64,000 nucleotides of DNA, from positions 186,001 to 250,000 of the forward strand of contig NW_025934728.1 in the NCBI RefSeq assembly GCF_000764305.2, written 5' to 3'. The stretch comes from Hyalella azteca. Its lineage: Eukaryota > Arthropoda > Malacostraca > Amphipoda > Hyalellidae. The notes under the pieces are model-generated. The model saw nothing but the letters and a program-made list of their open reading frames with translations, searched no databases and was not told the origin of the DNA. Position numbers and translations under genes: made by a program. This document shows, piece after piece, positions 33,177 to 64,000 of this stretch. How positions within the stretch are numbered: the stretch's first letter is position 1; the number at the start of each line of letters is the position of its first letter.

Positions 33177-34596
33177 TTCATCACCGCGGACTGCAGTGCT
33201 TCATCACCGCGGACTGCAGTGCTTCATCACCGCGGACTGCAGTGCTTCATCACCGCGGACTGCAGTGCTTCATCACCGCGGACTGCAGTGCTTCATCACC
33301 GCGGACTGCAGTGCTTCATCACCGCGGACTGCAGTGCTTCATCACCGCGGACTGCAGTGCTTCATCACCGCGGACTGCAGTGCTTCATCACCGCGGACTG
33401 CAGTGCTTCATCACCGCGGACTGCAGTGCTTCATCACCGCGGACTGCAGTGCTTCATCACCGCGGACTGCAGTGCTTCATCACCGCGGACTGCAGTGCTT
33501 CATCACCGCGGACTGCAGTGCTTCATCACCGCGGACTGCAGTGCTTCATCACCGCGGACTGCAGTGCTTCATCACCGCGGACTGCAGTGCTTCATCACCG
33601 CGGACTGCAGTGCTTCATCACCGCGGACTGCAGTGCTTCATCACCGCGGACTGCAGTGCTTCATCACCGCGGACTGCAGTGCTTCATCACCGCGGACTGC
33701 AGTGCTTCATCACCGCGGACTGCAGTGCTTCATCACCGCGGACTGCAGTGCTTCATCACCGCGGACTGCAGTGCTTCATCACCGCGGACTGCAGTGCTTC
33801 ATCACCGCGGACTGCAGTGCTTCATCACCGCGGACTGCAGTGCTTCATCACCGCGGACTGCAGTGCTTCATCACCGCGGACTGCAGTGCTTCATCACCGC
33901 GGACTGCAGTGCTTCATCACCGCGGACTGCAGTGCTTCATCACCGCGGACTGCAGTGCTTCATCACCGCGGACTGCAGTGCTTCATCACCGCGGACTGCA
34001 GTGCTTCATCACCGCGGACTGCAGTGCTTCATCACCGCGGACTGCAGTGCTTCATCACCGCGGACTGCAGTGCTTCATCACCGCGGACTGCAGTGCTTCA
34101 TCACCGCGGACTGCAGTGCTTCATCACCGCGGACTGCAGTGCTTCATCACCGCGGACTGCAGTGCTTCATCACCGCGGACTGCAGTGCTTCATCACCGCG
34201 GACTGCAGTGCTTCATCACCGCGGACTGCAGTGCTTCATCACCGCGGACTGCAGTGCTTCATCACCGCGGACTGCAGTGCTTCATCACCGCGGACTGCAG
34301 TGCTTCATCACCGCGGACTGCAGTGCTTCATCACCGCGGACTGCAGTGCTTCATCACCGCGGACTGCAGTGCTTCATCACCGCGGACTGCAGTGCTTCAT
34401 CACCGCGGACTGCAGTGCTTCATCACCGCGGACTGCAGTGCTTCATCACCGCGGACTGCAGTGCTTCATCACCGCGGACTGCAGTGCTTCATCACCGCGG
34501 ACTGCAGTGCTTCATCACCGCGGACTGCAGTGCTTCATCACCGTGAACTGCAGTGCTTCATCACCGCGGACTGCAGTGCTTCATCACCGCGGACTG
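33177..34596. repeat. ~62-copy 23-bp near-perfect array
   Basis: Units of 23 bp start TGCTTCATCACCGCGG and end ACTGCAG. Only one unit near 34540 differs noticeably (GTGAAC for GCGGAC). The period is not divisible by three and no frame has a stop, so open frames of more than 430 codons exist in all three plus-strand frames; these are not genes. TTCATC...TGCAG|TGC resembles the end of glycosyltransferase exon 4, its likely seed. It begins at a single-N join, so its real length is uncertain. Confidence 0.95.
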
Positions 34597-34629
34597 CGAA
34601 CTTTTCGCAAGTTGGGATTGTAGACAATA

Positions 34630-38090: not shown

Positions 38091-38458
38091 GGCAGATAAC
38101 AGTTTTCCAGACCGAGACAACACGACATAGTCACAGATCGTTCCAGGTCGCTTGAGAATTTCAGAAAATTTTCAGAATCATTGTATCCCAGCAAGTTTGC
38201 GCGGCATTGTTCGGATTCTAAAATTTCAGCAATTTTGAAATGCCAAATATGAATCTAATTATAGAAAGACCCGTTCATACACATATCTTAAAAAAAAACA
38301 ATGTACGTCTTAAATGTATAAACACATTAAATGTATCAAAGCATTTAAAGAAAAATAATTTAAATTTTCAATTCAAACCTATCCTCCCAGTATTGCTATG
38401 CCTACCTATTTTTCTACTGAGAATAAATTTTTGGTCGTGTTAGTATCCTGACATAAGT

Positions 38459-38580
38459 ATGGATGGATACGCGCCCCAACAGCCCCTATATATTGCGGCG
38501 CCATAAGTATCCTGGATACGCGCCCCAACAGCCCCTATATATTGCGGCGCCATAAGTATCCTGGATACGCGCCCCAGCAA
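38459..38580 (-). repeat. 49-bp repeat, locus 1 (also at 52.7 kb)
   Basis: About 2.5 copies, read on the minus strand, of a unit starting GTATCCAGGATACTTATGGC and ending TGTTGGGGCGC. The edge TATCCTGACATAAGTATGG matches the edge of the 52.7-kb array. Both loci therefore share an element boundary, not only the unit. Confidence 0.88.
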
Positions 38581-46625: not shown

Positions 46626-46727
46626 ATTTTTTGATATATTGTGTTCTATTGCATCTACCCCAATAATCCTAATAAACTATTTCCTTTTATTTTTGGAGTG
46701 GTTGATTAACAATGATTTTGATTACAG

Positions 46728-49700
46728 ATGCTGCTACAGTCCTCAGTCAAGCGGCAGCAATGGCCAAGAATGGCTGGGAGGTTTTCCTTGCCAAAAAGCG
46801 ACCTCTGGACAATGAACAACACCCTGGCGATAGTGGTCCAGACAGCGGCCAGAAGCGGCAAAAGGTGGCGCAGACTTCGCCACATGCGACTAAGTGTAGC
46901 AAGAGTGATTTGGCCAGTCTATTCCCTAACTTGTTCAGACTAACAAATGCTAAGCTGTCTACTGCAAATAAGAATGGGCGTAGAGTTGAAAAAAATTCTG
47001 ACCTTGTGGAAAGAGGAACTGTTGAAACAGCCTCAGCTTCTTCAAAGATTGCATCTGAGAAGACAGTAAGGAATGATTGGAAGATACTTCCAACTCAGCA
47101 CCATTCAGGGGTCAGAGATAAGTTTTTCACTACAAGAAATATGGTTGTCACAAACGTCAAGGTTCACAATGAAGTCAAGTATAGGGTCTTCAAGATGAAA
47201 AACAGTGCGCAGAACAGAGCAAAAGCTACATCAAAGAAGAGATCTGATGCTAGTCAACTCAAGTCTTCAACTGCCAAGTTGAACACAACAAAGACTGATT
47301 CTGAAAACAGTCTTTCCGATCAAGAATCGGTGAAAGTTAAATGGAACTTCACTGCCAGGGGCAAAAAAAATTCCTTGAAAACAAAATCAAACGAGACATC
47401 TCAGCAGCCTGCTTTTGCCATGAACAAAGAACAAACTTCTGTGAAAACTACAGAAAAACCGGCAGGCGAGAAAATTTCACAAGCAAATCAGGCTTCCAGT
47501 AAGGATTTAGTTTCGAATGATTTATACCAAAGTAAAATTTCACGCGATCACTGCTCAAATAGCGATAAAAATACTGACTCTACAGTGGGATGTTCTGGCC
47601 TTCCTTCTGGATCATCATGCACAGGCAGTAATGTATTGAATGCTAGCGACCATCAAAGAGACTGCGCTATATCTTCTCACCCTATTGAGGATGGAGAGCG
47701 TAAAGCCAAAGTATTCAAGAAAGAAAACGAGTGTTCCTCTTCAGACTGGGACAACAAAGATGGCAAACTTACGTCTGGGTTGAATGATAAAGATACAGAA
47801 TTATCACACGATCAGTCAGAGGCCGCCGATTCTTTAGATTTCATCAAAGAAGAAATGATTGACGACGCTGACAGTAATCCTGTTGAGGACCTCGAAGATT
47901 CTCTCGTTGACAACATCCTTGCTAAGTATTCAGACGTGCTACCTAAAGCTGCCAAACTTCTCAGTGATTTTTATGGTATATCTTGTCCGTTTCCTTCCAA
48001 AGCCGTATCTATCACGCCAGCATCTCAAGTGTCTTCATCTTCTGCTATCAAGGAAGAAAAATTCTCGAGTGAAGTTGGAGCGCAAGTTGGAATAAATAAT
48101 GGCGAAAACACTTTCACAATATCTCCCGTAGTGAAGCGAGTCCCGTCTTCAATACTTGAGCCGCAAGTTCTCATCCACGAGCCTGGAAATAGTTTGTCTA
48201 TGTTTGAAGACTATGGCGATGTGGTAGTAAGCGATCACGAAGTTTTCAGTGATGTTGAGAGCAGTGAAGATGAATCAGAAGGAAAGGACTACCGTAATAT
48301 GGAATATATTCGACATATCAGACGCCATATTGGCGTGACGCAATACAATCCAGCTGTGATACTTGATACTGGTAAGGTGGTCGCGCCTCAAACTGTTCTA
48401 CGGACCTCGCAGAGCCCAGTCCCAGCAGCCCAGGATGCTGATGTTGTGTCGTCGGTCCAGGCAGCTCTGTTGGCTCGTCCAGCTTTAACTATTACTCCTG
48501 TTCAAGGTTTGAATGCCACAAAAGAGCCAGATCAAAGTTTTGGTCGTTCTTTAAAATCAAATTTAGGTTCTCACGACAATAATCAGAACATTTTCGGCTT
48601 TAATAGCATGTCTTCTTGTGCAAGTGGTGTGAACAGTGCAATCTCTGAAAATTCTTTGAATAACGTGTTAACCAGTAAATCAAATAAAGATAAAAAATCT
48701 ATGAATAATCTCAAAGCTCCCGACTCAACTTTGACGAATTATTCCAAAAAATCCAAATCTCCGGAATCTCCATCGAAGGCATCTTATTGTATTAACCCTA
48801 GAACTCCTCACTACCCTGCCGTGATGAGTGCTACGCGCGGGTTGGCTGCTCCAGTAGTGAAAGAGTCGACCACGTCTTCTCCTGTGATACGCCAGCATTC
48901 AATTTCTTCACCTACGACTGTGCCAACAGTTACTTCTCCTAACTATGTAATGTCTAATCCTGCCACAACGTCTAGATGGAATCAAATGGATTCTCCTGCA
49001 ACTTCCATGATCCTTTCTAGCAACAGTAGTCAGATGACCTCTAGATCAGATGCTCGAACAAGCTCATCAATTTCTAGTGCAGTTGTGTCAGGTGGGAACA
49101 CAACGTTAGTTAGATTCGGAACACTGCTGATTTCTAAGGCTTCAACTTCGATACATAATACTTCAAGCACTAATCACTCTGTAGATTCGCATATTTCGAA
49201 ATGTGATGCAAAAAACATAATTGTGGGCAATACGATGAACGTTCCAACTTCTTCCAATGAAAATAGCTTAATACCTTGCAGTAGTAATGCTCCCGTTCAA
49301 ACAGCTACCAACAAGACACCCTTAACTTCAGTGAGTGCTCCTTGTCTGTCGAGTACCTCGCTAACCCAAGCCACGTCCACCACACAGACGTTCTTGGTGC
49401 AGCCTCATTCAGTTGCCGGTGAGCCTAAGCCCCCCATGCTGCTGGTCAGAGCTAACAGCATTGAAGACGTCAAGAATTTGTTCTTAAAGAGGCAGATTGT
49501 GTTTGGTCCGAGACCCGCTGTGGCCACCACATCCCAGACTTGTGTTAACAAGGTGCCCGTGAGCGCCATAGCTTCAATGGCTAATGGAAGTGATTCTGTC
49601 ACCACTACATCTTCATCACCTGCTACATCGTCATCGTGTAATTCACATAGAATTGTTCTTTCTTATTCAAAGAAAGGTTACTCAATAGCTTCTAGTACGC

Positions 49701-50929
49701 TTAAATGTGCGGTCGATGTAGACGCTCATGTGAAAAACTCGGCAACGAAGAAGTCTTCAGATCTCGGCTTTGAGCTCTTCCCTTCTGTGAAACCCTTCAG
49801 TATCGTGTTGAAGTCTTCCGACATAGTTGATCTGAAAGGCAAAACTACAGTTAATGTCAATGAATTGGTTGTACAGAATGGAAGGTTGTGCGTTCAAGAC
49901 AGTAAAGCGGAAGTCAAACGCGAGGAAGTTTATGCTCCACCAGAGCTTCTCTCAACGTCTCCAAGTCCTCCTTACATTCTTCCTACTTGCGCCAGTCCTC
50001 CCCTGGATGTTGTCTTAACGGAGGAGTCTAAGTTCAGTCTTGCAACTTCAAATTATCCAAAATTACATGAAAATCAAACTATTAGCGCCAAAAATGAGCA
50101 CGATGTTTGCGAAGCATCCGTTGGCAGCTGCGCTGAAGTCGAAATCAAGCATGAGCCTGATGTGTCTGATCCTGACGATACATCAGCTTGTCAGGATTTA
50201 GGTAATCCAATTAAAACTGATGTGTTGAATGAGACCAAAGCTTCACTGGGGATGACTAGCTCTTGTACCAGAGTCACTGTCAGCAACGGTTTAGCTAACT
50301 CATTTACCCTCTCTTCTCCAACAGCGGATAGTCCTCGATCTTGTACTGTTTCTTCGGCACTAAGCTTATCTGGTGCTGTTAACACTGTACCGATATCGTC
50401 TTTTGAAATAGTCTTGAATAAAGGAATTAGTCAAGCTGTTGGCTCGTATAAGTCTAGCTGTAGTCCTCCTGTGCTATTGGACCAACAACAGCCTCAAAGA
50501 TCCTCTAGTTTGTACGCTCCCAACATGTCTCAGCCCGCAAGTTCGCTTGCTGCAGCCGATGCTACACGCAGTAATGGCGCTGCAATATCCGATACGTCTG
50601 AAGTTGTGGAAGTCTCTGCAGTGCCCCATCGAGACACTACTACTACTGGTAGTAGTGTCACTACTAGTGGTAGTAGTGTCTCCTGCCAGTTGAAAGTTGC
50701 GGAGGTCTCTGCAGTGGAGGAAGACGGTGAGAGAGACTCTGGTGCAAAGAAGAGCAAATGTCGCGTCAAGTCGACGTCAACTTACGCGAGGCCGAGGCTC
50801 GCTGTCAAGAACTCGCTTGCTCTCATGGCGCCTACTGCCACCAGGTGCGTCTGTATGCACGCATTTTTATTGTTTCTTTTCAGTGCTTTCAGAGATTCAG
50901 AAATTTGCCGAATAGACAACATATTGTAG
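46728..50929 (+). CDS. Giant exon of an unrecognised Ser/Thr-rich nuclear protein
   Basis: An open frame of about 1,400 codons follows a clear acceptor (TTTTGATTACAG, ending 46727); the ATG at 46712 lies inside that intron end, so it is probably not the real start. Near the N-terminus a bipartite basic cluster (KKRPLDNE...GQKRQK) suggests nuclear import. At least four SUMO-acceptor consensus sites (IKEE about residues 381 and 445, VKRE about 1067, IKHE about 1143) and acidic patches (DVESSEDESEG) fit a chromatin or transcription regulator. Most of the protein is low-complexity Ser/Thr/Asn. The better-ordered parts are near DSLVDNILAKYSDVLPKAAK and NMEYIRHIRRHIGVTQYNP. No known domain or catalytic motif is recognised. 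The end is uncertain: either a stop at 50929, or a donor CACCAG|GTGCGT at 50845 leading to more exons. Confidence 0.75.
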
Positions 50930-51388: not shown

Positions 51389-51469
51389 ATGTCTCCTGAC
51401 AGTTGTGATGCTGACATCACCGCTGCTGAGCCATCACTAGCCGGCACTGCGGATCAGCTCGCTTCGCTG
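51389..51469 (+). CDS. SCLY: SCLY exon 1
   Basis: ATG TCT CCT GAC AGT opens 27 codons ([20 protein letters not shown] onward) and ends CTTCGCTG|GTGAGA in phase 0, joining exon 2. The same frame can also be entered by an acceptor CTCCTGACAG at 51402, so the ATG could be internal to a longer transcript. Confidence 0.6.
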
Positions 51470-54400
51470 GTGAGACTCGCAGTGTACACGTTTCTCTTCG
51501 CTATCTTTTATTCCTCATATTATGTTATATTATTTGCACACTTTTGAATTGAAATATATATTGCAAGTCTGATATATCTAAATAATGTCATCTGAAATAC
51601 CGCTCGCATTACCGACACCACATTACCGACACCATATTACCGACATCCCATTACCGACACCCCATTACCGACACCCCATTACCGACACCCCATTGCCGAT
51701 ACCACATTACCGACACCATATTACCGACACCCCATTACCGACACCACATCACCAATACCACATCATCGCTACCTTTACTACCCCCCCAGTCGCTGGCGCG
51801 CCCGTTGTTCACGACGTCCCTCTACTTTGACTACAACGCGACGACGCCCGTCGCTAGCTACGTCCAGGACGTCATCGTCAGGACCCTGCAGAAGGCCTGG
51901 GCCAACCCCAGCTCCTCGTACCCCCTGGGGCGCCGGGCCAGCCGGGCCGTGGATAAGGCCAGGGTCCGCGTGGCGACCCTGCTCGGTTGCCGGCCCGAGA
52001 ACATCGTCTTCACGTCAGGGGGCACTGAGGTCAGTGGGTCAAGTGAGGTCAGTGGGTCAAGTGAGGTCAGTGGGTCAAGTGAGGTCATTGGGTCGAGTGA
52101 GGTCAGTGGGTCGAGTGAGGTCAGTGGGTCGAGTGAGGTCAGTGGGTCGAGTGAGGTCAGTGGGTCGAGTGAGGTCAGTGGGTCACGTGAGGTCAGTGGG
52201 TCACGTGAGGTCAGTGGGTCACGTGAGGTCAGTGGGTCACGTGAGGTCAGTGGATCAAGTGAGGTCTGTGGGTCAAGTGAGGTCTGGGTCAAGTGAGGTC
52301 AGTGGGTCAAGTGAGGTCACTGGGTCAAGTGAGGTCAGTGGGTCAAGTGAGGTCAGTGGGTCAAGTGAGGTCAGTGGGTATATCGTTGATGTTTAATGAG
52401 ATGTTGCGCCCCCAGAGCTGACGGTGGTGGGGTGGCGTGCACAGAGCACACTATCGTTGATGTTTAATGAGATGTTGCGCCCCCAGAGCTGACGGTGGTG
52501 GGGTGGCGGCGGCTGACGGAGGAGTTGACCAAGCACGTCAAGTGCAACACGTGCCTCATCTCCATCATGCTCGCCAACAACGAGAGTGGCATCATCCTGC
52601 CTGTGGCGGAGGTGGCGAGGTGTGTGGCGCAGGTGGCGAGGTGTGTGGCGGAGGTGGCCGGGTGTGTGGCGGAGGTGGCCGTGTATCCAGGATACTTATG
52701 GCGCCGCAATATATAGGGGCTGTTGGGGCGCGTATCCAGGATACTTATGGCGCCGCAATATATAGGCGCTGTTGGGGCGCGTATCCAGGATACTTATGGC
52801 GCCGCAATAAATATAAGGGTTGTTGAGCGCGTATCCAGGATGCCTACTTATCGTGTCAGGATAATATTATTGGTTTATTATCATTAGTTATTTATGTATA
52901 AATGTTTTTTTAATGTAATAATTAACTTGTTTATTATTCCGTGTTTGTTTGCTGTGTGAGCTCTCTTACTTGAATTTGCTCAGTCTTAAGAATATTTATG
53001 ATCCCCGGTATATGACCTGTATATGGAGACATGAGCTGGGCTCACTGAGTATGGCTGATATGTAATTGATTAACTGCTATGTAATATGTTGCATGATTGG
53101 CTGATTTGTACTTGTATGGCTGATATGCAATTCTATGGCTGATATATAATTGTATAGCCGATATGTAATTTTATGTCTGATATATAATTGTACAGCTGAT
53201 GTGTAATTTGTTCTGATATGTAATTGTATGGCTTATATGTATGACTGATGTGTAATTGTATGTTACAGGAAAGTATACGAGGAAGTAAGCAAGGCGCGGC
53301 GGCAGCGGAAGCTGTTCTCAGTGCTCGTGCACACGGACGCCTCGCAGGCCGTCGGCAAACTCAACGTCGACGTCGACGATCTGGGCGTGGACTACCTGAC
53401 GCTTACGGGGCATAAGGTGTGTGAGGTGTGTGAGGGGTGTGAGGGGTGTGAGGGGTGTGAGGGGTGTGAGGCGTGGACTACACTCAACGTCGACGTCGAC
53501 GATCTGGGCGTGGACTGTGAGGTGTGTGAGGGGTGTGAGGGGTGTGAGGGGTGTGAGGTGTGTGAGGGGTGTGAGGGGTGTGAGGGGTGTGAGGCGTGTG
53601 AGATGTGTGAGGTGTGTGAGGTGTGTGAGGGGTGTGAGGTGTGTGTGGTGTGTGAGGTGTGTGGCGTGGTATGAGCAGGGACACTAGGTGTGTGACTATC
53701 AATAAGTCCTAATCTTTGTTGTGTATTTTTTTAGTGCTGCTACTACTAGGGAGATAATATTTACTACTAGGGAGATCATATTTACTACTAGGGAGATCAT
53801 ATTTACTACTAGGGAGATCATATTTACTACTAGGGAGATCATATTTTAAAATTTATTTATCATTCACTCCGTGTTGTTATGCAGGCTATTTCCTCGATGT
53901 CTAGTTAGAGGCACTAACGTACAGAGACAGTTTGTCTCTCATAGTTGAGGTCTACCTATGATGTCGATTGCAGGCCTCTCTCATCATGTTAAGTGGGAGA
54001 ACTTGCACAATTGGTGACTGACTTAACACTTCTTTTCCCACTTATTTTTATTTTCACACTTATTTATTTTTAACACTTAACACTTAGTCGGCAAGTTGAC
54101 CACCTTCACCATTCTCGCTGCCCCCAATAACATCTCAGAACCAATATTATTTATAAGTTTAGTTACCACAAGCGCTCCCAATTACACTGAAGAATGCATG
54201 ATTGGCTTTATGTACGTTATTGTACAATAAGTTAGAATGTTTAGTTACCACAAGCGCTACCAATTATACTGAAGAATGCATGATTGGCTTTATGTACGTT
54301 ATTGTACAATAAGTTAGAATCTTCTTAAAGCGTTTCATGCGTGCAGTTCTACGGTCCACGGGCTGGGGCGCTCTACGTACGCGAGGACCCCAAGGGCTTC

Positions 54401-57400
54401 TTGCCGGTCTACCCTCTCTTGTATGGAGGGGGCCAGGAGAGAGGGATACGGCCTGGTGAGTGGGGGCATGAGAGAGGGATATGGCCTGGTGAGTGGGGGC
54501 AGGAGAGAGGGATACGGCCTGGTGAGTGGGGCCAGGAGAGAGGGATACGGCCTGGTGAGTGGGGCCAGGAGAGAGGGATACGGCCTGGTGAGTGGGGCCA
54601 GGAGAGAGGGATACGGCAATATTCACATACACCGATGTATCAATGAACCACTTCACTATCTCCCATATAATAAAATATAATAATATAATATAACATAATA
54701 TAACACAGTATAATATAATATAATATAATAACATGGTTAGGCACGGAGAATGTAATATATGATATAATATAATATAATACCGTATAATATAATAAGATAT
54801 AATATAACATAACAACATGGCAGGCACGGAGAACACTGCGATGATCGCTGGTCTGGGCGCCGCCTGCAAGCTCGCGCACGACAACATCGCTGCCATCTAC
54901 AGCAAACTGAAGAAAACGCGAGGCTACCTCGAGACATGTCTTAAGGTGCGCGAGACCTGCCTTAAGGTGCGCGAGACCTGCCTCAAGGTGCGCGAGACAT
55001 GCCTTGAGGTGCCCTCGAGACCTGCCTTAAGGTGCGCGAGACATGCGCGAGACCTGCCTTAAGGTGCGCGAGACATGCGCGAGACCTGCCTTAAGGTGCG
55101 CGAGACATGCGCGAGACATGCCTTAAGGTGCGCGAGACCTGCTCGAGACCTGCCTTTAGGTGCGCGAGACCTGCCTTAAGGTGCGCGAGACCTGCCTTAA
55201 GGTGCGTGAGACATGCCTTAAGGTGCGCGAGACATGCCTTAAGGTGCGCGAGACCTGCCTTAAGGTGCGCGAGACCTGCCTTAAGGTGCGCGAGACATGC
55301 CTTAAGGTGNNNNNNNNNNNNNNNNNNNNNNNNNNNNNNNNNNNNNNNNNNNNNNNNNNNNNNNNNNNNNNNNNNNNNNNNNNNNNNNNNNNNNNNNNNN
55401 NNNNNNNNNNNNNNNNNNNNNNNNNNNNNNNNNNNNNNNNNNNNNNNNNNNNNNNNNNNNNNNNNNNNNNNNNNNNNNNNNNNNNNNNNNNNNNNNNNNN
55501 NNNNNNNNNNNNNNNNNNNNNNNNNNNNNNNNNNNNNNNNNNNNNNNNNNNNNNNNNNNNNNNNNNNNNNNNNNNNNNNNNNNNNNNNNNNNNNNNNNNN
55601 NNNNNNNNNNNNNNNNNNNNNNNNNNNNNNNNNNNNNNNNNNNNNNNNNNNNNNNNNNNNNNNNNNNNNNNNNNNNNNNNNNNNNNNNNNNNNNNNNNNN
55701 NNNNNNNNNNNNNNNNNNNNNNNNNNNNNNNNNNNNNNNNNNNNNNNNNNNNNNNNNNNNNNNNNNNNNNNNNNNNNNNNNNNNNNNNNNNNNNNNNNNN
55801 NNNNNNNNNNNNNNNNNNNNNNNNNNNNNNNNNNNNNNNNNNNNNNNNNNNNNNNNNNNNNNNNNNNNNNNNNNNNNNNNNNNNNNNNNNNNNNNNNNNN
55901 NNNNNNNNNNNNNNNNNNNNNNNNNNNNNNNNNNNNNNNNNNNNNNNNNNNNNNNNNNNNNNNNNNNNNNNNNNNNNNNNNNNNNNNNNNNNNNNNNNNN
56001 NNNNNNNNNNNNNNNNNNNNNNNNNNNNNNNNNNNNNNNNNNNNNNNNNNNNNNNNNNNNNNNNNNNNNCTGTCACAGCTGACACTCTCGCCTGTCACAG
56101 CTGACACTCTCGCCTGCCACAGCTGATACTCTCGCCTGTCACAGCTGACACTCTCGCCTGTCACTGCTGACACTCGCCTGCCACAGCTGACACTCTCGCC
56201 TGTCACAGCTGACACTCTCGCCTGCTACAGGCAAAGTTCGGGCGAGACCTGAAGCTGAACTGCCTGGAGCCCTGTGTACCCGATGACCCCGACGCGTGCG
56301 TGTCAGCCCACCTCTCCCTGGGGGGCGCCGGCCCCATACTCGTCTTCCCCCGCATCCCCAACACCACCAGCGTCACTTTCAACTACCCACAGGTGCCTAA
56401 ACTTTATTTGCTCCTATTATTTCTTTGTTAATTGTCGTTACACTTCATTTCTTCCTCTTATTTGTTTGTTAATCCTGCCCATATGTCGTCTTTATTCAAC
56501 ATTCAACTACCCACAGGTGCCTACACTGCATTTCTTCCTCTTATTTATTTGTTAATTGTCGTTACACTTCATTTCTTCCTCTTATTTCTTTGTTAATTGT
56601 CGTTACACTTCATTTCTTCCTCTTATTTCTTTGTTAATTGTCGTTACACTTAATTTCTTCCTCTTATTTGTTTGTTAATTGTCGTCTTCATTCAACATTC
56701 AACTACCCACAGGTGCCTACACTTCATTTGCTCCTCTTATTTAAGTACGGGCCGCGGATGAAAAGGCATATAATTCAAAATAAATTAGTAAATTGATAGG
56801 TTCAGGTGCAAAGATTAAATTTTATATTTTTTCAGTACTTATTAAAATTTAATGAAGTAGTACTTTCATCATAAATTTTTGTCGACAAACGCAATCGAAA
56901 AAACTAAATCGCGCAATTTGTCCGGAAAAAAGACCCTGCTACCCACCGTTGGGTCATTAAAATTATTAGTCCAAAACCCGTTCCACTCTGTTTATTGCGC
57001 AATCTTCCCCTCTGGTACCAGCAATTGTGCAATCATTTCAATCACGATTGTTCCTCTATCGAGCGCTTTCAAAACTTTGCTAAATCGCAAGTTCGCTAAA
57101 AATTTAAAAGCCAACATAACTTCAAGCAAATTTCCTATACCTTCATTGAAAAAGTTTTTGAAGGTTCTTTTTATCTAAATTGTTACTTTAACTAATGATG
57201 GAGCTTTTCTGTGAAACGTTTTCATTCATGATAGGGTGAAATCACTTAGCGTTTATTTCCTTTTAGATTCTTGCTTCCTCTCTCAATTTCCAGCACATTA
57301 TCTATACATTTTTTAACGAATCGTCTATCATTTATCACTATCCCCCTCACCATTACCATAATTATTTCCGCTGCACCATTTACCGCGCTACGCTGGCCCT

Positions 57401-57524
57401 GATCGCCGCTCACTCGCCGCTCCTGCGCAGGTGACGGCGCAGGCGCTGCTGCAGGTCTGCCCTAACCTCATGGCCAGCGTCGGCGCCGCCTGCCACTCTG
57501 CCGGCGCTCCGGAGTACAAGAATA
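51389..57524 (+). CDS. SCLY: Selenocysteine lyase (partial), eight exons found
   Basis: Exons 51389-51469, 51790-52029, 52487-52619, 53269-53416, 54347-54455, 54824-54945, 56231-56392 and 57431-57524 encode a class V aminotransferase fold (NifS family) that releases selenium from L-selenocysteine using PLP. Landmarks in order: [38 protein letters not shown] (cofactor aspartate), LTGHK (Schiff-base lysine), [33 protein letters not shown], and ASVGAACHS (loop with the catalytic cysteine). These order and match mammalian SCLY rather than bacterial IscS. All adjacent exon phases agree except between the second and third exons, where about 70 residues, including the conserved VEH histidine, are missing. 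The last exon(s) (family ending, about 50 residues) are also not found. Exons are GC-rich against AT-rich flanks. Nearly every intron starts with a repeat built from its own donor. Confidence 0.92.
51605..51775 (+). repeat. 13-14-bp ATTACCGACACCCC array before SCLY exon 2
   Basis: About 12 units of CATTACCGACACC(C/A) end some 15 bases before the acceptor of exon 2, so here the array is anchored at the 3' end of the intron. Confidence 0.88.
51790..52029 (+). CDS. SCLY: SCLY exon 2
   Basis: Acceptor CCCCCCCAG; 80 codons in phase 0, including [12 protein letters not shown] and [12 protein letters not shown]; donor [17 protein letters not shown] and the glycine-rich TSGGTE are signature segments of the NifS/SCLY fold. 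Confidence 0.92.
52027..52379 (+). repeat. 18-bp donor-anchored array in SCLY intron 2
   Basis: The unit GAG|GTCAGTGGGTCAAGT contains the last codon of exon 2 and its donor, repeated about 19 times. The period is six codons and the exon frame stays open for about 14 units. Variants GGGTCGAGT and GGGTCACGT form internal blocks, indicating stepwise expansion. Confidence 0.95.
52381..52508 (+). repeat. Duplicated acceptor and first bases of SCLY exon 3
   Basis: TATCGTTGATGTTTAATGAG through CCCCCAG|AGCTGACGGTGG is present twice with an offset of 71 bases (52381 and 52452). Only the second copy leads into the full exon. Confidence 0.92.
52487..52619 (+). CDS. SCLY: SCLY exon 3 (found), around ANNESG
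   Basis: Two bases, 43 codons and two bases: [18 protein letters not shown], then [20 protein letters not shown]. The donor GCGAG|GTGTGT gives an arginine codon with exon 4 and restores the family's PVPE-I-x-x-R spacing. Its incoming phase needs one base from the previous exon, but exon 2 ends in phase 0, further proof of a missing exon. Confidence 0.88.
52600..52682 (+). repeat. 21-bp donor-anchored array in SCLY intron 3
   Basis: The unit GTGGCGAG|GTGTGTGGCGCA (with AG/GG variants) includes the last eight exonic bases and the donor, about four copies. The period is seven codons and the frame stays open. Confidence 0.9.
52683..52865 (+). repeat. 49-bp repeat, locus 2 (inverted relative to 38.5 kb)
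   Basis: Three full copies of GTATCCAGGATACTTATGGC...GTTGGGGCGC plus a partial copy starting at 52831. They end with CTTATCGTGTCAGGATAAT, which matches the 38.45-kb edge. Confidence 0.92.
53040..53268 (+). repeat. Degenerate ~19-bp array ending at the SCLY exon 4 acceptor
   Basis: GTATGGCTGATATGTAATT-type units recur about ten times and run up to TGTAATTGTATGTTACAG, the acceptor itself. Confidence 0.8.
53269..53416 (+). CDS. SCLY: SCLY exon 4 with PLP lysine
   Basis: One base completes the split arginine codon, then [29 protein letters not shown] and [12 protein letters not shown]. The aspartate and glutamine of HTDASQ contact the cofactor in this family, and the terminal HK carries the Schiff-base lysine. 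Donor AAG|GTGTGT. Confidence 0.92.
53405..53668 (+). repeat. 9-bp donor-anchored array with captured exon sequence, SCLY intron 4
   Basis: GAGGGGTGT-type 9-bp units start at the donor and stay open in the exon frame for about 84 codons. At about 53468-53517 a copy of part of exon 4 (CTCAACGTCGACGTCGACGA then TCTGGGCGTGGACT) sits inside the array. Confidence 0.92.
53735..53848. repeat. 22-bp ACTACTAGGGAGATCATATT array, 5 copies
   Basis: Near-identical units inside SCLY intron 4, not touching a splice site. Confidence 0.92.
54158..54322 (+). repeat. ~82-bp tandem duplication before SCLY exon 5
   Basis: GTTTAGTTACCACAAGCGCT through TTGTACAATAAGTTAGAAT occurs twice and ends about 24 bases before the exon 5 acceptor. 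Confidence 0.9.
54347..54455 (+). CDS. SCLY: SCLY exon 5
   Basis: Acceptor [29 protein letters not shown] and [12 protein letters not shown], ending CCTG|GTGAGT in phase 1. This region packs around the cofactor lysine (GHK|FYGP junction conserved). Confidence 0.92.
54431..54616 (+). repeat. 33-bp donor-anchored array, SCLY intron 5
   Basis: Each unit is 23 exonic bases (CCAGGAGAGAGGGATACGGC plus CTG) and ten intronic (GTGAGTGGGG). Five intact donors CTG|GTGAGT result, all in the same phase. The period is 11 codons and the frame stays open through all units. Confidence 0.95.
54660..54823 (+). repeat. AT-rich run with duplicated acceptor of SCLY exon 6
   Basis: ATAATATAAT microsatellite-like sequence surrounds AACATGGTTAG|GCACGGAGAA at 54731-54751. 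This is a diverged copy of the true acceptor and exon start AACATGGCAG|GCACGGAGAA. Confidence 0.85.
54824..54945 (+). CDS. SCLY: SCLY exon 6
   Basis: Two bases complete the glycine, then [20 protein letters not shown] and a helical stretch ending YLETCLK|. The ENTxxIAGLG segment is conserved in SCLY/IscS proteins. Donor AAG|GTGCGC. Confidence 0.92.
54931..55309 (+). repeat. 21-bp donor-anchored array, SCLY intron 6 (runs into gap)
   Basis: The unit GTGCGCGAGACCTGCCTTAA plus G includes 15 exonic bases and the donor CTTAAG|GTGCGC. At least 15 copies are visible before the N run. The first three units hold the exon frame; a short unit near 55010 then shifts it. Confidence 0.95.
55310..56069. 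other. Assembly gap, 760 N
   Basis: Sequence unknown. Different arrays flank it on each side, so the gap probably hides more repeats. The open frames predicted across it are meaningless. Confidence 0.99.
56070..56230 (+). repeat. 22-bp CTGTCACAGCTGACACTCTC array ending at the SCLY exon 7 acceptor
   Basis: About seven units of CTGTCACAGCTGACACTCTC plus GC; the last unit, CTCTCGCCTGCTACAG, is the working acceptor. Each unit contains the acceptor-like CTGTCACAG. Confidence 0.93.
56231..56392 (+). CDS. SCLY: SCLY exon 7
   Basis: 54 codons in phase 0: [10 protein letters not shown] continues the family's helix, then a variable stretch and [14 protein letters not shown]| (the LPNT-x-x-x-F motif). 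Confidence 0.9.
56376..56745 (+). repeat. Donor-containing repeats, SCLY intron 7
   Basis: TTCAACTACCCACAG|GTGCC recurs at 56506-56520 and 56700-56714 as ATTCAACTACCCACAG|GTGC. A ~44-bp unit ACACTTCATTTCTTCCTCTT plus TTGTTAATTGTCGTT repeats between them. Confidence 0.9.
56750..57430. other. SCLY intron 7, remaining AT-rich part
   Basis: A ~99-codon frame at 56879-57178 has no family resemblance. Nothing else recognised. Confidence 0.35.
57431..57524 (+). CDS. SCLY: SCLY exon 8 with catalytic cysteine loop
   Basis: Acceptor [31 protein letters not shown] then [11 protein letters not shown], donor AATA|GTGAGT. The cysteine of GAACHS is the active-site residue. The family continues with about 50 further residues that I cannot find downstream. 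Confidence 0.92.
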
Positions 57525-57652
57525 GTGAGTGGTGTGAGGGGTGAGTGGTGTGAGGGGTGAGTGGTGTGAGGGGTGAGTGGTGTGAGGGGTGAGTGGTGTG
57601 TGGGGGTGGTGAGTGGTGTGAGGGGTGAGTGGTGTGTGGGGGTGGTGAGTGG
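57525..57652 (+). repeat. 16-bp donor-anchored array, SCLY intron 8
   Basis: GTGAGTGGTGTGAGGG repeats about seven times starting at the donor. The period is not divisible by three, unlike the other SCLY donor arrays. Confidence 0.93.
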
Positions 57653-57699
57653 TGCTGAAAATTTTCACATCGCTGGTCAAAATTCATAGTCATTCAACT

Positions 57700-57960
57700 T
57701 GCATGAACGATGGTCCCGGCGGAAAGCAGAGCTGGTGGCAAGACCACGCTGGTCCTCTGGGTCTGCCGTATTCGGATGACTTATCCGGCCAAGTTAGACG
57801 ACCAGGGTAAGAGAAATACTGATTTAGGCGAGAAGATAACTAGCGGACTGCAGCGTCGGAGGGGAATCCAAAGGCCTGTCTAGACAGACACGACAGCCGC
57901 GTCCAGCCCCGCCCGTTCAGAGAGACGGCTCAATTACGAGTGAGCCGACCAACGGTAGTT
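57700..57960. other. GC-rich island of unknown nature
   Basis: It contrasts with AT-rich flanks. A 57-codon frame from ATG at 57710 (starting MVPAESRAGGKTTLVLWVCR) includes a donor-like CAGGGTAAGAG. It does not match the expected SCLY C-terminus. It could be a TE piece or an unrelated exon. Confidence 0.25.
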
Positions 57961-58234
57961 CAATTTCTCAAGGGTAGTTCAATTTCTCAAGGATGATGAT
58001 GATAGTGATGATAGTGATGTGTGATGTGCTCTGATGATGATGGTGATCTGTGATGTGTTATGATGGCGATATGTGATGGTAGCGATCATCACCATCAGCG
58101 ATAATACCCTGAAGCTGGATTAAGTAATAGTGAAGCAGGATCAGTTACCAGGCTTGTGATGGTGGCAGGATTCTCAGTTTATGTCACGCAAGATCCCAGT
58201 TAACGAGTACTCTGCTATCTTTGTTTATCTTCTG
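57960..58234. other. Non-coding stretch with GATGATGRTGATG runs
   Basis: Low-complexity GATGATGATAGTGATG-type sequence (about 57990-58090) and no gene. Confidence 0.4.
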
Positions 58235-58491
58235 AAAAATTAAAAGCGAAGAAAACTCAAAAAAAAATTCAGCGTTTCTCTATTGAAAACGTTTCGGAGA
58301 CCAGCTCCATCGTCAGCTCGATAAATCTAGAACACAGATACTGTACTACAGTCCGAAAATACCACGGTAACTGTATTTTTTTGACTGTATTCGTGTTGTA
58401 GATTTATCGAACTGACGATGGAGCTGGTCTCCGAAACGTTTTCAATAGAGAAACGCTGCATTTTTGTGGAGTTTTCTTCGCTTTTAAATTT
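58235..58491. mobile_element. Foldback element, ~95-bp arms
   Basis: Arms beginning TAAAAGCGAAGAAAACTC and ending near GATAAATCTAGAACAC are inverted around a ~55-base centre. Each arm holds CTGACGATGGAGCTGGTCTC CGAAACG (read outward), reminiscent of the hammerhead-type motifs of Penelope-like elements. The family is not certain. Confidence 0.65.
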
Positions 58492-58499
58492 CTAGTGAG

Positions 58500-58919
58500 A
58501 TTCAAGCAATCTAAGTTACATTATTACTTGTTTATCTTCATCTTGCGTACGTTTCTCCTCGTTATCTTTTTATTTGATGCTGTGCTCTTTGATAATGTAG
58601 AGTCACTTGCTCTGTATTATAATGTAAAAGCTTTTTTTTTCACTGTGGGTGTATGATGTAGAAACTCTTTTTACTGTACACTGAAAGTTGACGTTGTTAG
58701 AGGAGATGTGTTACAAGGACTAAGAAATCCAGCATAATTGTTACGTTGGTTCAAATAAAACTGAATGTAGTAAACGTTTACGTTGCTAGCGTTATTTATG
58801 AAGACATTAAAGTAATGTGGTGCCTTCGTCTTGTGGTCTTCCAAATATGACAGTCCTAATAATTAATAAGTGCAATCCTTCGTCAGCGAACCGCTGCACT
58901 TGGATGTAGTTTTTACGTA
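58500..58919. other. AT-rich stretch, nothing recognised
   Basis: No SCLY C-terminal exon or other gene recognised. Confidence 0.35.
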
Positions 58920-59115
58920 TTTTTTTAGCGCATTTTCTCATTTATGGAAAAAAACACTATTGTGCTCGCCATGTCCGTCTGTCTGTTCGTCCGTCTGTCT
59001 GTCCGTCCGTCCGTCCGTCTGTCCGTCTGTCCGTCCGTGACCTCAAGTTTCCGTCGACGAGAAAATGCGCTCTCTGTCACTCACTGCAGTGAGTACTGAG
59101 TTATATTTTTTTAAG
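58920..59115 (-). mobile_element. (GGACAGAC)n-containing interspersed repeat, copy g
   Basis: Complete copy: TTTAGCGCATTTTCTCATTT, a (GTCCGTCT)n core of about 65 bp, CGTCGACGAGAAAATGCGC, CACTCACTGCAGTGAGTACT and an AT-rich end. Confidence 0.7.
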
Positions 59116-59454
59116 AACCTGCCTTGTTTTTCTCTTATTGAGATAATTGTAAGAAAATGTTCTAGCAGAATGTACATAAAGTTAGATAATAGAAGTATGA
59201 TGTTCCTCAGGTACTTTTACACTTGAATCAACGCTGGAATAGGAATAGGGGGATTGATGCATTGCCTTCTACCTATTAGAACTTGATTTTTTTATTTAAT
59301 TTAAAGGGAAATAATTATTAAATTAAATAATGAAGGGTCTTAGCATCGCTTGCTTTCAATTTAATTATTTGTGGATTTGCCGTGAATTTCTTCCTGTGTT
59401 TAGTTAACTTTTATTTTTGTGTGCAATCTGTTGATTTTTCGTGGATATATGATT

Positions 59455-59605
59455 TCCTGACATGTTGACATGTTCATATAACGCAGGTGCCTTCATACTT
59501 CATTTCCTGACATGGTGACATGTTCATATAACGCAGGTGCCTTCATACTTCATTTCCTGACATGTTGACATGTTCATATAACACATTTGCCTTCATACTT
59601 GGTCT
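59455..59605. repeat. ~50-bp tandem repeat, 3 copies
   Basis: Copies share ATTTCCTGACATG and TGACATGTTCATATAACGCA followed by GGTGCCTTCATACTT. CGCAG|GTGCCTTCATACTTC resembles the donor region of SCLY exon 7. Confidence 0.85.
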
Positions 59606-59950
59606 AAATTCTCTCGATTGCTTTTAAATATTTTTCTGCACTTTTGGTTCAGTTAATTATTTCTAATGGAGGATTCTTGACGTAGCATTGCAAGATCATT
59701 GAAAAATGTATTTACTTGCTGTCAATTTTCTTCGTTAAATTAATTTAAAAAGATATTGAGATGGCTCAAAATAGCAGTGATTTTTCTGCGTACCGATGAA
59801 ATTTTAATTAAAAAATTTTAATTTTAATTTAAATTTTTTAATCAAGTTTTTGTTGGTACTGAGCCAAACATTTCAGATGACTAGACTCGCGAAATATTAC
59901 GTTTGTGTGCAAAATGTTGAATCGCCGACATGCTGGTCACAACTGAACAT
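59606..59950. other. AT-rich stretch, nothing recognised
   Basis: No feature supported. Confidence 0.35.
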
Positions 59951-60168
59951 CTGGGCCCATACTTTCAAAACTCGCTAAGTGAACGTAAGTACTTACGCTC
60001 TATTTTCTTGTCTATGATTGGTGGATACTTTCAAAGCTCGCTATGTGAACGTAAGTACTTACGCTCTATTTTCTTGTCTATGATTGGTGGATTTTGCTTG
60101 AAAGGCCGTCAATGATTGGCTGATGAACTTACGATCTCTTCACTTTTTTTTTTAAAGTATGGCCCCTG
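59951..60168. mobile_element. MITE, hAT-like ends (family copy 5, internal duplication)
   Basis: Ends CTGGGCCCATACTTTC and AAAGTATGGCCCCTG. A ~68-bp segment containing CGTAAGTACTTACGCTCTAT is duplicated in tandem, making this copy 218 bp. Confidence 0.8.
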
Positions 60169-60169
60169 A

Positions 60170-60764
60170 TCCATGATACGCATAGCGAGTGCGTGGCAAT
60201 ACATTTATGGCCGCTCACGAAAGCTCTGGACTTGGAGTATTTTATTGATATAATTTTAGATGTTATTAGTATGCCAGTATATATGTATATTTAGTCTGTA
60301 ATTATCTTAAAATCGCTAAAATAAAGAGTAATTATCGTTAAATGGCCAGCATTAAAAGTAATCTATTTTCGTATCTTAAATTTCTTCGTATCTTCACTAT
60401 CTTTGTATTGGCATCGCTCAAAACTCTCATAATACAAAACTCAAAATTTTGACTTATTTACCATCGTGAAGACAAATGCTAACAAATATTACACAACTGT
60501 TGAACATAAACTATTATTTTGTACCTAATTGCAACTGAATTTTCAACAATTAACGCCCTTGATCCCGGAAAATTCAATGCCTCAGAGGTTTATTTTTCCG
60601 CTCCAGATAAACTAGAACAATTTGATGTTCTTTCATTTAAATCCTTTCATTTGTTCTGCCTTGTGAAGAAGCACCGCTTGGAATTTTGAATTCTTTCAAT
60701 CATTGCATTGGCTACATCGTTTATCCGATTCGGTTCTCACGCCCTCAGCCCTCCTTCCATCCCC
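60170..60764. other. AT-rich stretch, nothing recognised
   Basis: No gene, RNA gene or mobile element recognised. Confidence 0.35.
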
Positions 60765-60880
60765 AACTTATAACCAGGCGCCGAAGTTCCCTAACTTATA
60801 ACCAGGCGCCGAAGTTCCCTAACTTATAACCAGGCGCCGAAGTTCTCTAGCTTATAACCAGGCGCCGAAGTTCCCCGAGC
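60765..60880. repeat. 28-bp CTAACTTATAACCAGGCGCC array, 4 copies
   Basis: The unit is CTAACTTATAACCAGGCGCC plus GAAGTTCC; near-perfect. Confidence 0.92.
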
Positions 60881-61525
60881 TAAAACAAATGTACAGATGT
60901 CAGGGACATCGCTGCTGGACTTTTCTGCAATGGAGGGAATGAAAAGTTGTGTGCTGGTCTGCATAGTTTATTTCTATGAGTGTACAGGCCAGAGTGACTG
61001 ATTTGACAAACTGAGTCGTAAGTCCATGCATGACTGAGCACAATTTTTAGCTGTAAAATTCAATCGGTAGCAACTCATTCATCTCTCGAAATGTAGGGAA
61101 ACTCGACTCTTTTGAAGGTTATTATTTGTGTGAATCAAAGAAAATTAGACGGCTTGCTATCGTACACAGCTTGTCGAATGGAGAAGTTTCCTTGCGGCGA
61201 GTTTGAAATTCTGATTTTAGACGAGAAATTTGCGTTATGCCTTTTTACGGGTACACAATTTTTATCACTTATAGCATAGTAAACGATTAAGCATTAACAA
61301 ACCTAATTTACATGATATTACGTAGGTATTGTATACATATCAATTACAACTTCAATAGAAACAACGAATTGCAACTCCAATAGAAACAGATGGGCCGCGT
61401 CACTCTGCATGCCCCTAGTCAATGCACAGAACATTCAAGCTTATTTATTATAGGACAACAAATGGGGCAAGCATATCAGGCATACGTTCGAAATTATGCG
61501 TGGCGCTTGGACGTCTTCAAAGTCG
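60881..61525. other. Intergenic stretch, nothing recognised
   Basis: Short frames only, no family resemblance. Confidence 0.35.
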
Positions 61526-61526
61526 C

Positions 61527-61618
61527 GAAGAATTGATCGCTGAACTCGTGTTGATCGAAGAATTGATCGCTGAACTCGTGTTGATCGAAGAATTGATCGC
61601 TGAACTCGTGTTCTCTCG
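61527..61618. repeat. 30-bp array, 3 copies
   Basis: The unit is GAATTGATCGCTGAACTCGT plus GTTGATCGAA, ten codons long and open in several frames. Confidence 0.9.
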
Positions 61619-61667
61619 CAGCTGAAGCTCGAAGCAACGCGAGAGGACGGCATGATTTTACAATGTT

Positions 61668-61962
61668 ACAGTGGTGGACTGAGGCGCCTTACAGTGTGGA
61701 CATAAAGTAAACTGTGGTGCCTTACAGTGTGGATATCAGGTGGACTGTTGCGCCTTACAGTGTGAACACCAGGTGGACTGTGGTGCCTTATAGTGTGGAC
61801 GTCAGATGGACTGAGGCGCCTTACAGTGTGGACGTCAGGTGGACTGAGGCGCCTTACAGTGTGGACATCAGGTGGACTGTTGCGCCTTACGGTGTGGACA
61901 TCTGGTGGACTGTGGTGCCTTACAGTGTGGACATCTGGTGGACTGTTGCGCCTTGTAGCAAC
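61668..61962. repeat. 33-bp array, about 9 copies
   Basis: The unit contains GTGGACTGAGGCGCCTTACA and GTGTGGACATCAG, alternating GAGGCG, TTGCG and GTGGTG variants. The period is 11 codons. Confidence 0.92.
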
Positions 61963-61969
61963 GCGTGGA

Positions 61970-62864
61970 CCATCAGTTGCAGCCAAAGTCCCATGAAGGT
62001 CCGTGGTTGGCAGTAGCCACGTCCGTAAATTGTAACAAGCCGGTCGGTTTAGTCGGTGAACTCATCGTCTTGTCGGCAAGTAAAGCCATCCGTTAAGGTA
62101 AGTCTGTTGGTGACATCTTGCGAAAAAGAAACTTCACTGAAGAGGGAATTTTTGACGTCATATTTGAGTGCAGTCCCAATTATTGACGTCAGAATAGAGT
62201 TCAGTTCTAAAAAGGCGGAAGGAATGCGTCCCGGAATTGCTCCGTTAAAGGAGTCACGCGTTCGCTTGTTCAATCAATTCGCTCATTCCCTATAACGTGC
62301 ACCACTTTAGAAAAGGCACGTTCAGAAGATTGTCATTAGAAATATTCTTGTTGTTTTATTTTTTAGTTTAAGTGGAACAGATGGAATTGCACGTAATAAA
62401 ACACAGAGTGGAGCATGAAAGCATGAGCAAGTACAGGACTATTGGGGTGCGGTGACAGATGTCAAACTCGTTGCAGTCTTCAGTATTCTGAAAAGGGTTA
62501 TAAATTTGGTTTCTAAATCAATTTTTCACTTTAGCCTTTAATTGTTAAATCATTTAACCTTTAGACGATATAAAATATGATTATTAATGGTGTTCGATAA
62601 GTGGACAAGTGAAAACGTTTGTCTGAAAATAACGAATTGCCAAGTTTCAGAGTAGCCTTTCGCGTCCACAATAAATGAATTTCCAACCTCACAATTTTTT
62701 GCTTAAATCATTCAGCACTTTGATACCCAAGCCAATAACTTAACCGATAACTTCGATCCTTTAGATCATAGACCTTATTCTTTGAGGATAAGTACATATT
62801 TTAAATCACAAACAAACGTAACTTATAAAAAAGTATTCTAAATTTTGCGGAATTTTCTGCGATC
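61970..62864. other. Intergenic stretch downstream of the minus-strand secreted-protein gene
   Basis: A 74-79-codon frame pair at 62049-62295 shadows itself on both strands. The part 62600-62864 would be the 3' untranslated region of the gene ending at 62865. Confidence 0.3.
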
Positions 62865-63851
62865 TCATTTGCCGAACATACCAGTGAATTTTTTCCAATA
62901 CCCGCCACCTCCTTTTCCTTTTCCACTAGGCCTGTGACTAGGTCGAAGGGGTATGACGACTGCCGAGGTCAGATAAGGGGTCGGTGGTGGTCCGTAACTG
63001 GCGGGCGGAGGACCATAGCTCTGATGTGCAGGTCTGTAGGGTTTGGGTGGTGGTCCGTGCACCTTTAGTGGAGCACCGTACGATACGGCAGGAGGCCCGT
63101 ATGAATTAAAATTAGATCCATAGGGAATGGATCCATGTGATATCGGCTTAAAACCTCCCGAGCTGCCTATGGATACACTAGAGTGGGCTGATCCATGGCT
63201 ACTGTGGACAGAACCGAAGTTATGTAGTTTAGGTTTAGATGGAACATCGTAGCCGATGACTGAGTCGTGTTTTACTGGGCCGAAATCTCCAAGAGCAAAG
63301 TCCGAGTACCCAGTTGAGAGTTTGTGCCCTTTGGAGTGAGGTGCTCCGTATTGGACGTCGAATCCACCGTGCAGGATCTCCTGGTGAGGTACAACGCCGG
63401 CATCGTGCTTGAACCCATCACCTGTTTTGCCGAAATCTATACCACCTCCAAAGTCGAGATGCACATCGGCTGGTTTTCCAACATCTATTTGGACCCCGTG
63501 AGGTTTTCCAAAGTCCAAGCTTGATTCAAAGCCTCCTTGAATCTTCCCGAAATCAAAATCGGATCCAAATCCCCCTTTCAGTCCAGTTGAGTCAAAATCA
63601 ATACCGGACTCGAATCCACCATGGGGTTTCCCAAAATCCAAGTCAGACCCTAATCCAGGTTTGCCGAAATTGAAATCAGAGCCAAAACTATTGAAATCTC
63701 CGCCGAGATCATTCAAGCTTGGCAGCGGGGGACCCACGTTGAGGAGCTGGGTGTTGGCAGGCTGTCCGGCCACCGCCCCACCAGGGTTCTGGAAATGTTC
63801 TCGCGTGCCAGGTGGCAGGTCTAGAGGCTGGAGGTGCTCTTCAACGCCAAA
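62865..63851 (-). CDS. Terminal exon of a glycine/YGPP-rich secreted structural protein
   Basis: About 328 codons end in TGA at 62865-62867. The exon starts at an acceptor read on the minus strand as TTTTTGCAATTTCAG, then [15 protein letters not shown]. The N-terminal half has repeats of a [15 protein letters not shown] type (about residues 60-150). The middle is Ser/His/Gly-rich ([16 protein letters not shown]). The C-terminal third has [13 protein letters not shown] and ends with a basic glycine patch ([13 protein letters not shown]). This composition resembles cuticular or other extracellular matrix proteins of arthropods, where YGPP-type repeats are common; no chitin-binding domain is seen. 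The signal peptide must be in an upstream exon beyond 63863, probably past the window. Confidence 0.75.
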
Positions 63852-63863
63852 CTGAAATTGCAA

Positions 63864-64000
63864 AAATTAGTTAAAGCTTTCGATGAGGTTGTGGGCATGA
63901 GGTGAATTTTTCAAGGCACTATAAAATATACAATTTTTTTATCTAATGTCAGATTCCATGAGCAGTGAGAAATCAGTTTCTGCGCACCTAGCTTTTAGGA
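63864..64000. other. Intron of the minus-strand gene, to window end
   Basis: AT-rich, no further exon recognised. Confidence 0.4.

Follow-up and report, generated by a model that had tools for sequence, protein, structure and literature searches.

Tandem repeats resembling amphioxus mirages at splice junctions of SCLY and other genes of the amphipod Hyalella azteca

Background

In amphioxus, the tandem repeats called mirages lie across exon-intron boundaries, both 5′ and 3′, in Adh3 and the globin genes (PMC3087553). According to the available text of the reports on them, many copies carry AG/GT, the units measure 10-72 bp in Adh3 and 150-160 bp at the globin acceptor, and the authors' data suggest ordinary splicing (PMC3087553, PMC3902484); further mirages were described in PGBD5 and troponin C (PMC3902484). 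In human IFI6, reported by Turri et al. (1995), minisatellite units form multiple splice donors at an exon end (PMC4526556). Moreover, tandem duplication of AGGT has been linked to intron gain, in the Rogers model (PMC3087553) and in the potato RdRp case (PMC4974935), and dual-specific AGGT splice sites are described for polyubiquitin UBC, with repeated AGGT enriched in tandem-repeat genes (PMC10809524), as far as the available portions of these papers go.

Here, we followed up a set of repeats in the SCLY gene of Hyalella azteca, located in a window of 64,000 nucleotides (the whole stretch of DNA analysed). The original prediction for this locus stated that no named element shows such behavior, which does not hold: the amphioxus mirages and the IFI6 minisatellite with its multiple splice donors are precedents. 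For crustaceans, no earlier report appeared among the openly licensed papers surveyed, nor in the available parts of the genome papers on Parhyale and Platorchestia, although this tests its absence only weakly.

Methods

SCLY exons were placed using splice sites, reading frame, and homologues. For the SCLY shuffle, TRF arrays were moved inside their own introns, and a hit was an array ≤ 5 bp from a donor. The number of exonic bases in the unit at donor 56392 is a manual count from the sequence contexts.

The independent set consisted of 115 exons from 20 loci encoding myosin heads and TCP-1 chaperonins, chosen regardless of repeats. Whole-genome searches (519 Mb, 4890 contigs) gave 90 matches to PF00063, of which 86 were used –the other four lay outside the retrieved stretches and were left out– and 61 matches to PF00118, of which 29 were used. 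TRF rows scoring < 50 were excluded, and where rows overlapped only the one with the highest score was kept. The null for junction counts was a uniform origin of arrays, and the ranges given are bootstraps over loci. Splice sites were scored with our own tables, based on the animal consensus.

Results

SCLY exons and gaps

Seven of the eight SCLY exons had a protein homologue, and the remaining one was placed with splice sites and frame alone (Table 1). Among the best 120 of 7994 matches, the one with the lowest E-value was a hagfish protein (45% identity), and the one with the highest identity came from the amphipod Hirondellea gigas (63% across 71% of the query). A conserved exon of ~57 residues, expected after GGTE at 52030-52486, is missing from the window, and so is the last exon (57525-64000). 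Neither of them had a match in the assembly at E ≤ 0.001 when searching with the Trinorchestia longiramus orthologue, so they represent either an assembly loss or a damaged gene. Since SCLY lacks these two exons, the array lengths as assembled are unreliable.

Just upstream of SCLY, we observed an open frame of 1407 residues (46706-50926 of the window) with no Pfam match at E ≤ 0.01. Its single match was a predicted T. longiramus protein of 2026 residues that runs on into SCLY; a gene fusion in amphipods or a merged gene model are both possible.

Table 1. SCLY exons, tandem repeats, and gap, with positions in the window
Feature	Position	Strand	Details
Exon 1 of the set	51403..51469	+	Splice sites and frame only; donor without array
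Array, mid-intron after exon 1	51607-51763		
SCLY exon, end GGTE	51790..52029	+	Homologues
18-bp array, 19.8 copies	52026..52379	+	Unit with donor and 4 exonic bases
Acceptor duplicate	52381..52508	+	57-nt segment present twice, copies identical and spaced 71 bp; 22 exonic bases
SCLY exon, end VAEVAR	52487..52619	+	Homologues; codon split by intron
21-bp array, 3.7 copies	52602..52679	+	18 exonic bases in unit
SCLY exon, end TGHK	53269..53416	+	Homologues
123-bp duplication (compound repeat)	53359-53598	+	58 exonic bases
9-bp GT-rich arrays	53415-53475, 53516-53663	+	Within 53359..53663
SCLY exon, end IRPG	54347..54455	+	Homologues; codon split by intron
33-bp array, 5.7 copies	54429..54617	+	27 exonic bases in unit
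SCLY exon, end ETCLK	54824..54945	+	Homologues
21-bp array, 17.9 copies	54930..55309	+	16 exonic bases in unit; 3′ end is an N gap
N gap, 760 bases	55310-56069		Adjoins the 21-bp array
22-bp array	56070..56235	+	Stops 6 bp short of the acceptor at 56231; 86-bp row of the array to 56235
SCLY exon, end FNYPQ	56231..56392	+	Homologues
Long-unit repeat	56378..56740	+	Approximate ends; donor context three times (56380, 56504, 56700), flanking a 41-bp array (56522-56685)
SCLY exon, end EYKN	57431..57524	+	Homologues; codon split by intron
16-bp array, 7.1 copies	57525..57654	+	From intron base 1; 0 exonic bases; overlapping rows to 57654

Repeats at the SCLY junctions

Repeats of the donor region follow all seven homologue-supported exons. 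Thus, the claim that seven of the eight SCLY donors carry arrays was borne out, with six tight arrays and one long-unit repeat. TRF placed an array ≤ 5 bp from six of the eight donors; the repeat at 56393 had no TRF call at the junction. Most units had also been said to include the last 8-23 exonic bases: a substantial exonic piece is present in four of the seven, and the actual counts are 4, 18, 2, 27, 16, 15, and 0 bases, in gene order. The weakest case is the 9-bp array at 53417, which retains GT in the donor register in only 17% of its later copies. The units of 18, 21, 9, 33, and 21 bp are multiples of 3.

We compared the exon-proximal joins with the T. longiramus protein, and they fit between IAR and KK, GHK and FYG, RPG and TEN, and P(K/Q) and VTA. 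After LK, the orthologue has ~35 extra residues, and the joint after GGTE falls outside the comparison because the next exon is missing. For the duplicated acceptor of exon 52487, it was also the exon-proximal copy that fit the protein. These joins suggest use of the exon-proximal site, although homology gives the ancestral exon end and not splicing itself.

Elsewhere in the window, two arrays 14 kb apart (38452-38576 and 52683-52841) have a 49-bp unit in common, by eye and in opposite orientation, suggesting that such units have dispersed. Another array (33177-34597) contains 61.8 copies of a 23-bp unit with 99% identity and is probably very young.

Within SCLY, six of the eight donors had an array ≤ 5 bp away, when the within-intron shuffle gave a mean of 0.45 donors and none of 20,000 shuffles was as high, in line with the view that ordinary minisatellites would not be expected to start there. 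On the other hand, arrays cover 52% of the SCLY introns, and the binomial probability that mere coverage reaches six of eight donors is 0.17. An array covering a donor is therefore unsurprising; an array starting at the donor is the unusual part. As the two nulls ask different questions, the test was moved to genes picked regardless of repeats.

Junctions of independent genes

In the independent set, whose counts rest on two gene families, 18 of the 115 donors fell within an array's first copy, vs. 4.9 expected (3.7-fold, 2.0-5.9; P = 4e-6). Units ≤ 60 bp gave 12 donors vs. 2.1 expected (5.7-fold, 2.7-9.8), and those with at least 5 copies as well –hereafter, short high-copy arrays– gave 8 vs. 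0.5 (16-fold, 6.0-35.6; P = 6e-8). For units > 60 bp, the figures were 6 vs. 2.8 (2.1-fold, 0.6-4.2; P = 0.07). At acceptors, arrays with units > 60 bp held 11 exon starts within their last copy vs. 2.6 expected (4.2-fold, 2.3-6.4; P = 9e-5), and shorter units displayed no excess (2 vs. 2.2; 0.9-fold, 0-2.0). Adjusting for GC, GC skew, and array density changed the excess little, and base composition does not explain it. Units with exonic pieces were also found at several of these junctions.

Manual reading of the 18 counted donors located a GT at the assigned site in 11 and 1-3 bases off in three; it was absent in four, and about four of the 18 may be false. False donors inflate the denominator too, since a domain end is not always an exon end. 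Among the eight short high-copy donors, only one (a 5-bp repeat) had no GT, and 10 of the 12 acceptors inspected had AG. Counted donor arrays occurred in 10 of the 20 loci, a few of which rest on doubtful donors.

In the strictest set, which comprised 46 introns paired at both ends and excluded SCLY, nine donors lay in a first copy (2.96 expected) and seven acceptors in a last copy (2.55 expected). Their short high-copy arrays reached six donors vs. 0.29 expected, and six of the ten such arrays in paired introns start at a donor. With SCLY included, introns with arrays measured 906 bp and the others 406 bp (P = 0.002). Altogether, the sampled genes show a firm excess of arrays at junctions relative to random positions.

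Array coverage over 97 exons fell from 0.175 in the last 5 exonic bases to 0.026 at 31-60 bases inside the exon. Toward the intron, it was 0.21-0.22 over bases 1-30, 0.19-0.21 as far as base 300, and 0.15 at 301-500; in array-rich loci (37 exons), it was 0.43-0.45 over bases 1-30 and 0.34-0.39 at 31-300. Coverage per locus ranged from 0 to 43% (L039-L063). Two of the loci, L044-L045 (C3480:70020-74578), presented consecutive exon matches to myosin positions ~376-436, a series that we take to resemble the mutually exclusive exons known from muscle myosin genes.

Real donors and donor-like GT sites

Considering all arrays in paired introns without SCLY, real donors and donor-like GT sites did not differ significantly (P = 0.29-1.0). 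Short high-copy arrays gave P = 0.017, 0.031, and 0.17 at three thresholds, and P = 0.0009, 0.003, and 0.02 when SCLY was included. A looser control, contaminated with unrecognised exons, did not differ for all arrays (18/97 donors vs. 38/260 GT sites; P = 0.41) and did so for short arrays with at least 5 copies (8/97 vs. 8/306; P = 0.03). An excess over donor-like sequence is thus suggestive, with the difference seen for high-copy arrays only. In a weak test, the donor motif itself was discarded as a hotspot: 9 of the 94 interior arrays had a donor-like unit, and random segments gave 5.8.

Of the 23 donor arrays in the SCLY and myosin loci, 22% contained the hexamer GGGTCA on the sense strand, as did none of the 94 interior arrays.

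Discussion

We suggest that mirage-type minisatellites, tolerated via the exon-proximal splice copy, probably explain these arrays. In a minisatellite-rich genome, segments spanning a junction would duplicate in tandem and then go through minisatellite-like turnover. If the splice-site copy adjacent to the exon is used, the mRNA would remain unchanged and the duplication could be tolerated, leaving the remaining copies as passive decoys. Such tolerance would need a unit with a complete splice signal. A donor takes about nine bases, whereas an acceptor needs a branch site, a pyrimidine tract, and AG. Given the size of these signals, only long units would copy the acceptor signal whole, and a short unit would be enough for a donor. 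In this way, tolerance by splicing could cause the split between short units at donors and long units at acceptors. Moreover, when the unit holds the donor and the 5′-most donor is used, the array has to begin no more than a unit's length from the junction. This logic accounts for the anchoring of the arrays, not for its frequency; behind the excess there would be an extra bias, with duplications either arising more often at junctions or surviving better there.

The excess could also come from a boundary effect only, with minisatellites that are dense in introns stopping where exons cannot tolerate them and no preference for junctions. Such an effect would agree with the roughly flat array coverage from the donor inward, with the coverage by any array at donor +5 (19/97 vs. 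14.8 expected), with the binomial result for SCLY, and with donor-like GT sites equaling real donors over all arrays. However, exonic bases in the unit imply that the duplication spanned the junction, and 15-27 of them are found in four of the seven SCLY arrays. Together with first-copy donors well above expectation, both overall and for short high-copy arrays, this makes a pure boundary effect unlikely. Mutation coupled to splicing or transcription –for example, through R-loops on a G-rich sense strand after the donor– could instead produce the duplications at junctions, and it is compatible with mirage-type minisatellites, for which it would supply the cause. The excess of short arrays at donors fits it, as does the positive sense-strand GC skew of donor arrays (0.26, n = 23, vs. 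0.02, n = 94; P = 0.009, SCLY included). Nevertheless, donors with and without arrays did not differ in skew ≤ 20 bases from the donor (P = 0.64), the excess was unchanged once skew entered the model, and acceptors were enriched too, with long units, so we consider coupled mutation rather doubtful. Its G-rich or R-loop version was rejected, as the skew of the arrays is not borne out around the junction. That junctions are hotspots of tandem-duplication birth tied to splicing or transcription, donors for short units and acceptors for long ones, we propose only tentatively. The original prediction of a process amplifying segments across junctions stands with regard to random positions; it is less clear against GT sites, and it is not confined to donors, as acceptors are affected too.

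Selection for redundant donors, by splicing robustness or U1 recruitment, had been offered as well. The GT is kept in 13 of 14 decoy consensuses (the SCLY 9-bp array is outside the 14), and a first count on 15 arrays seemed to show better-conserved donor columns (P = 0.004), although that count was register-biased. In a register-free alignment of the 14 arrays, decoy donor columns were no better conserved than the others (0.927 vs. 0.919; P = 0.58), which is expected of passengers. Donors with arrays scored higher, not lower, than the rest on our consensus-based tables (4.03, n = 14, vs. 2.78, n = 49; P = 0.02, SCLY included), which rules out compensation for weak donors, and frame-preserving units were ruled out too, with multiples of 3 at only three of nine donors of paired introns other than SCLY. 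With decoys not specially conserved and array donors not weak, the proposal is left unsupported and we see it as very improbable. An assembly artefact would be in line with the N gap within one SCLY array and with the two SCLY exons that lack a match in the window and the assembly. However, donor arrays with differing units appeared in 10 of the 20 repeat-blind loci, even if a few of them rest on doubtful donors, and several independent donor arrays have exonic pieces in the unit; we give this explanation hardly any credit.

The mirage phenomenon is now described in an arthropod, and with a number attached. The rule of short units at donors and long units at acceptors lends itself to testing in any genome with an annotation, and these junctions are a natural experiment in spliceosomal choice when many sites are nearly identical. 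Arrays of this kind provide raw material from which new introns and alternative exon ends can arise, and at the junctions that bear them gene models, as well as assemblies, may fail. If the hotspot reading were true, gene structure would direct where minisatellites arise.

Regarding known systems, an introner-type element was discarded: judged by eye, the units differ between junctions and form no common sequence family; the motif GGGTCA recurs in 22% of donor arrays. Rogers-type intron gain shares the tandem duplication across splice signals, to the extent that the available text describes it. In contrast to that model, the amphipod arrays sit at one intron end and no intron lies between two duplicate ends; only one of the seven SCLY introns with both ends placed has an array at each end, and the units are different (TRF), unlike the arrangement that the model describes. 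With UBC, again from the portion of the source available, the amphipod repeats have the repeated AGGT motifs in common, but those of UBC are coding and these are intronic. For IFI6, the available text documents alternative use of the repeat units, whereas in the amphipod we infer exon-proximal use, and several genes are affected.

The closest likeness is to the amphioxus mirages, whose structural features the amphipod arrays have, as judged here from DNA alone. The unit extends across the junction, clearly in the four SCLY arrays with the longer exonic pieces and with 4, 2, and 0 exonic bases in the rest, and splice signals recur in the repeats, with the same 13 of 14 decoy consensuses carrying GT and the SCLY 9-bp array mostly without it. 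Unlike the amphioxus cases, the host is a crustacean, seven of the eight donors of one gene are involved, and the excess was measured against a positional null. What is new is therefore the crustacean host, the density, the measured excess, and the split between short units at donors and long units at acceptors.
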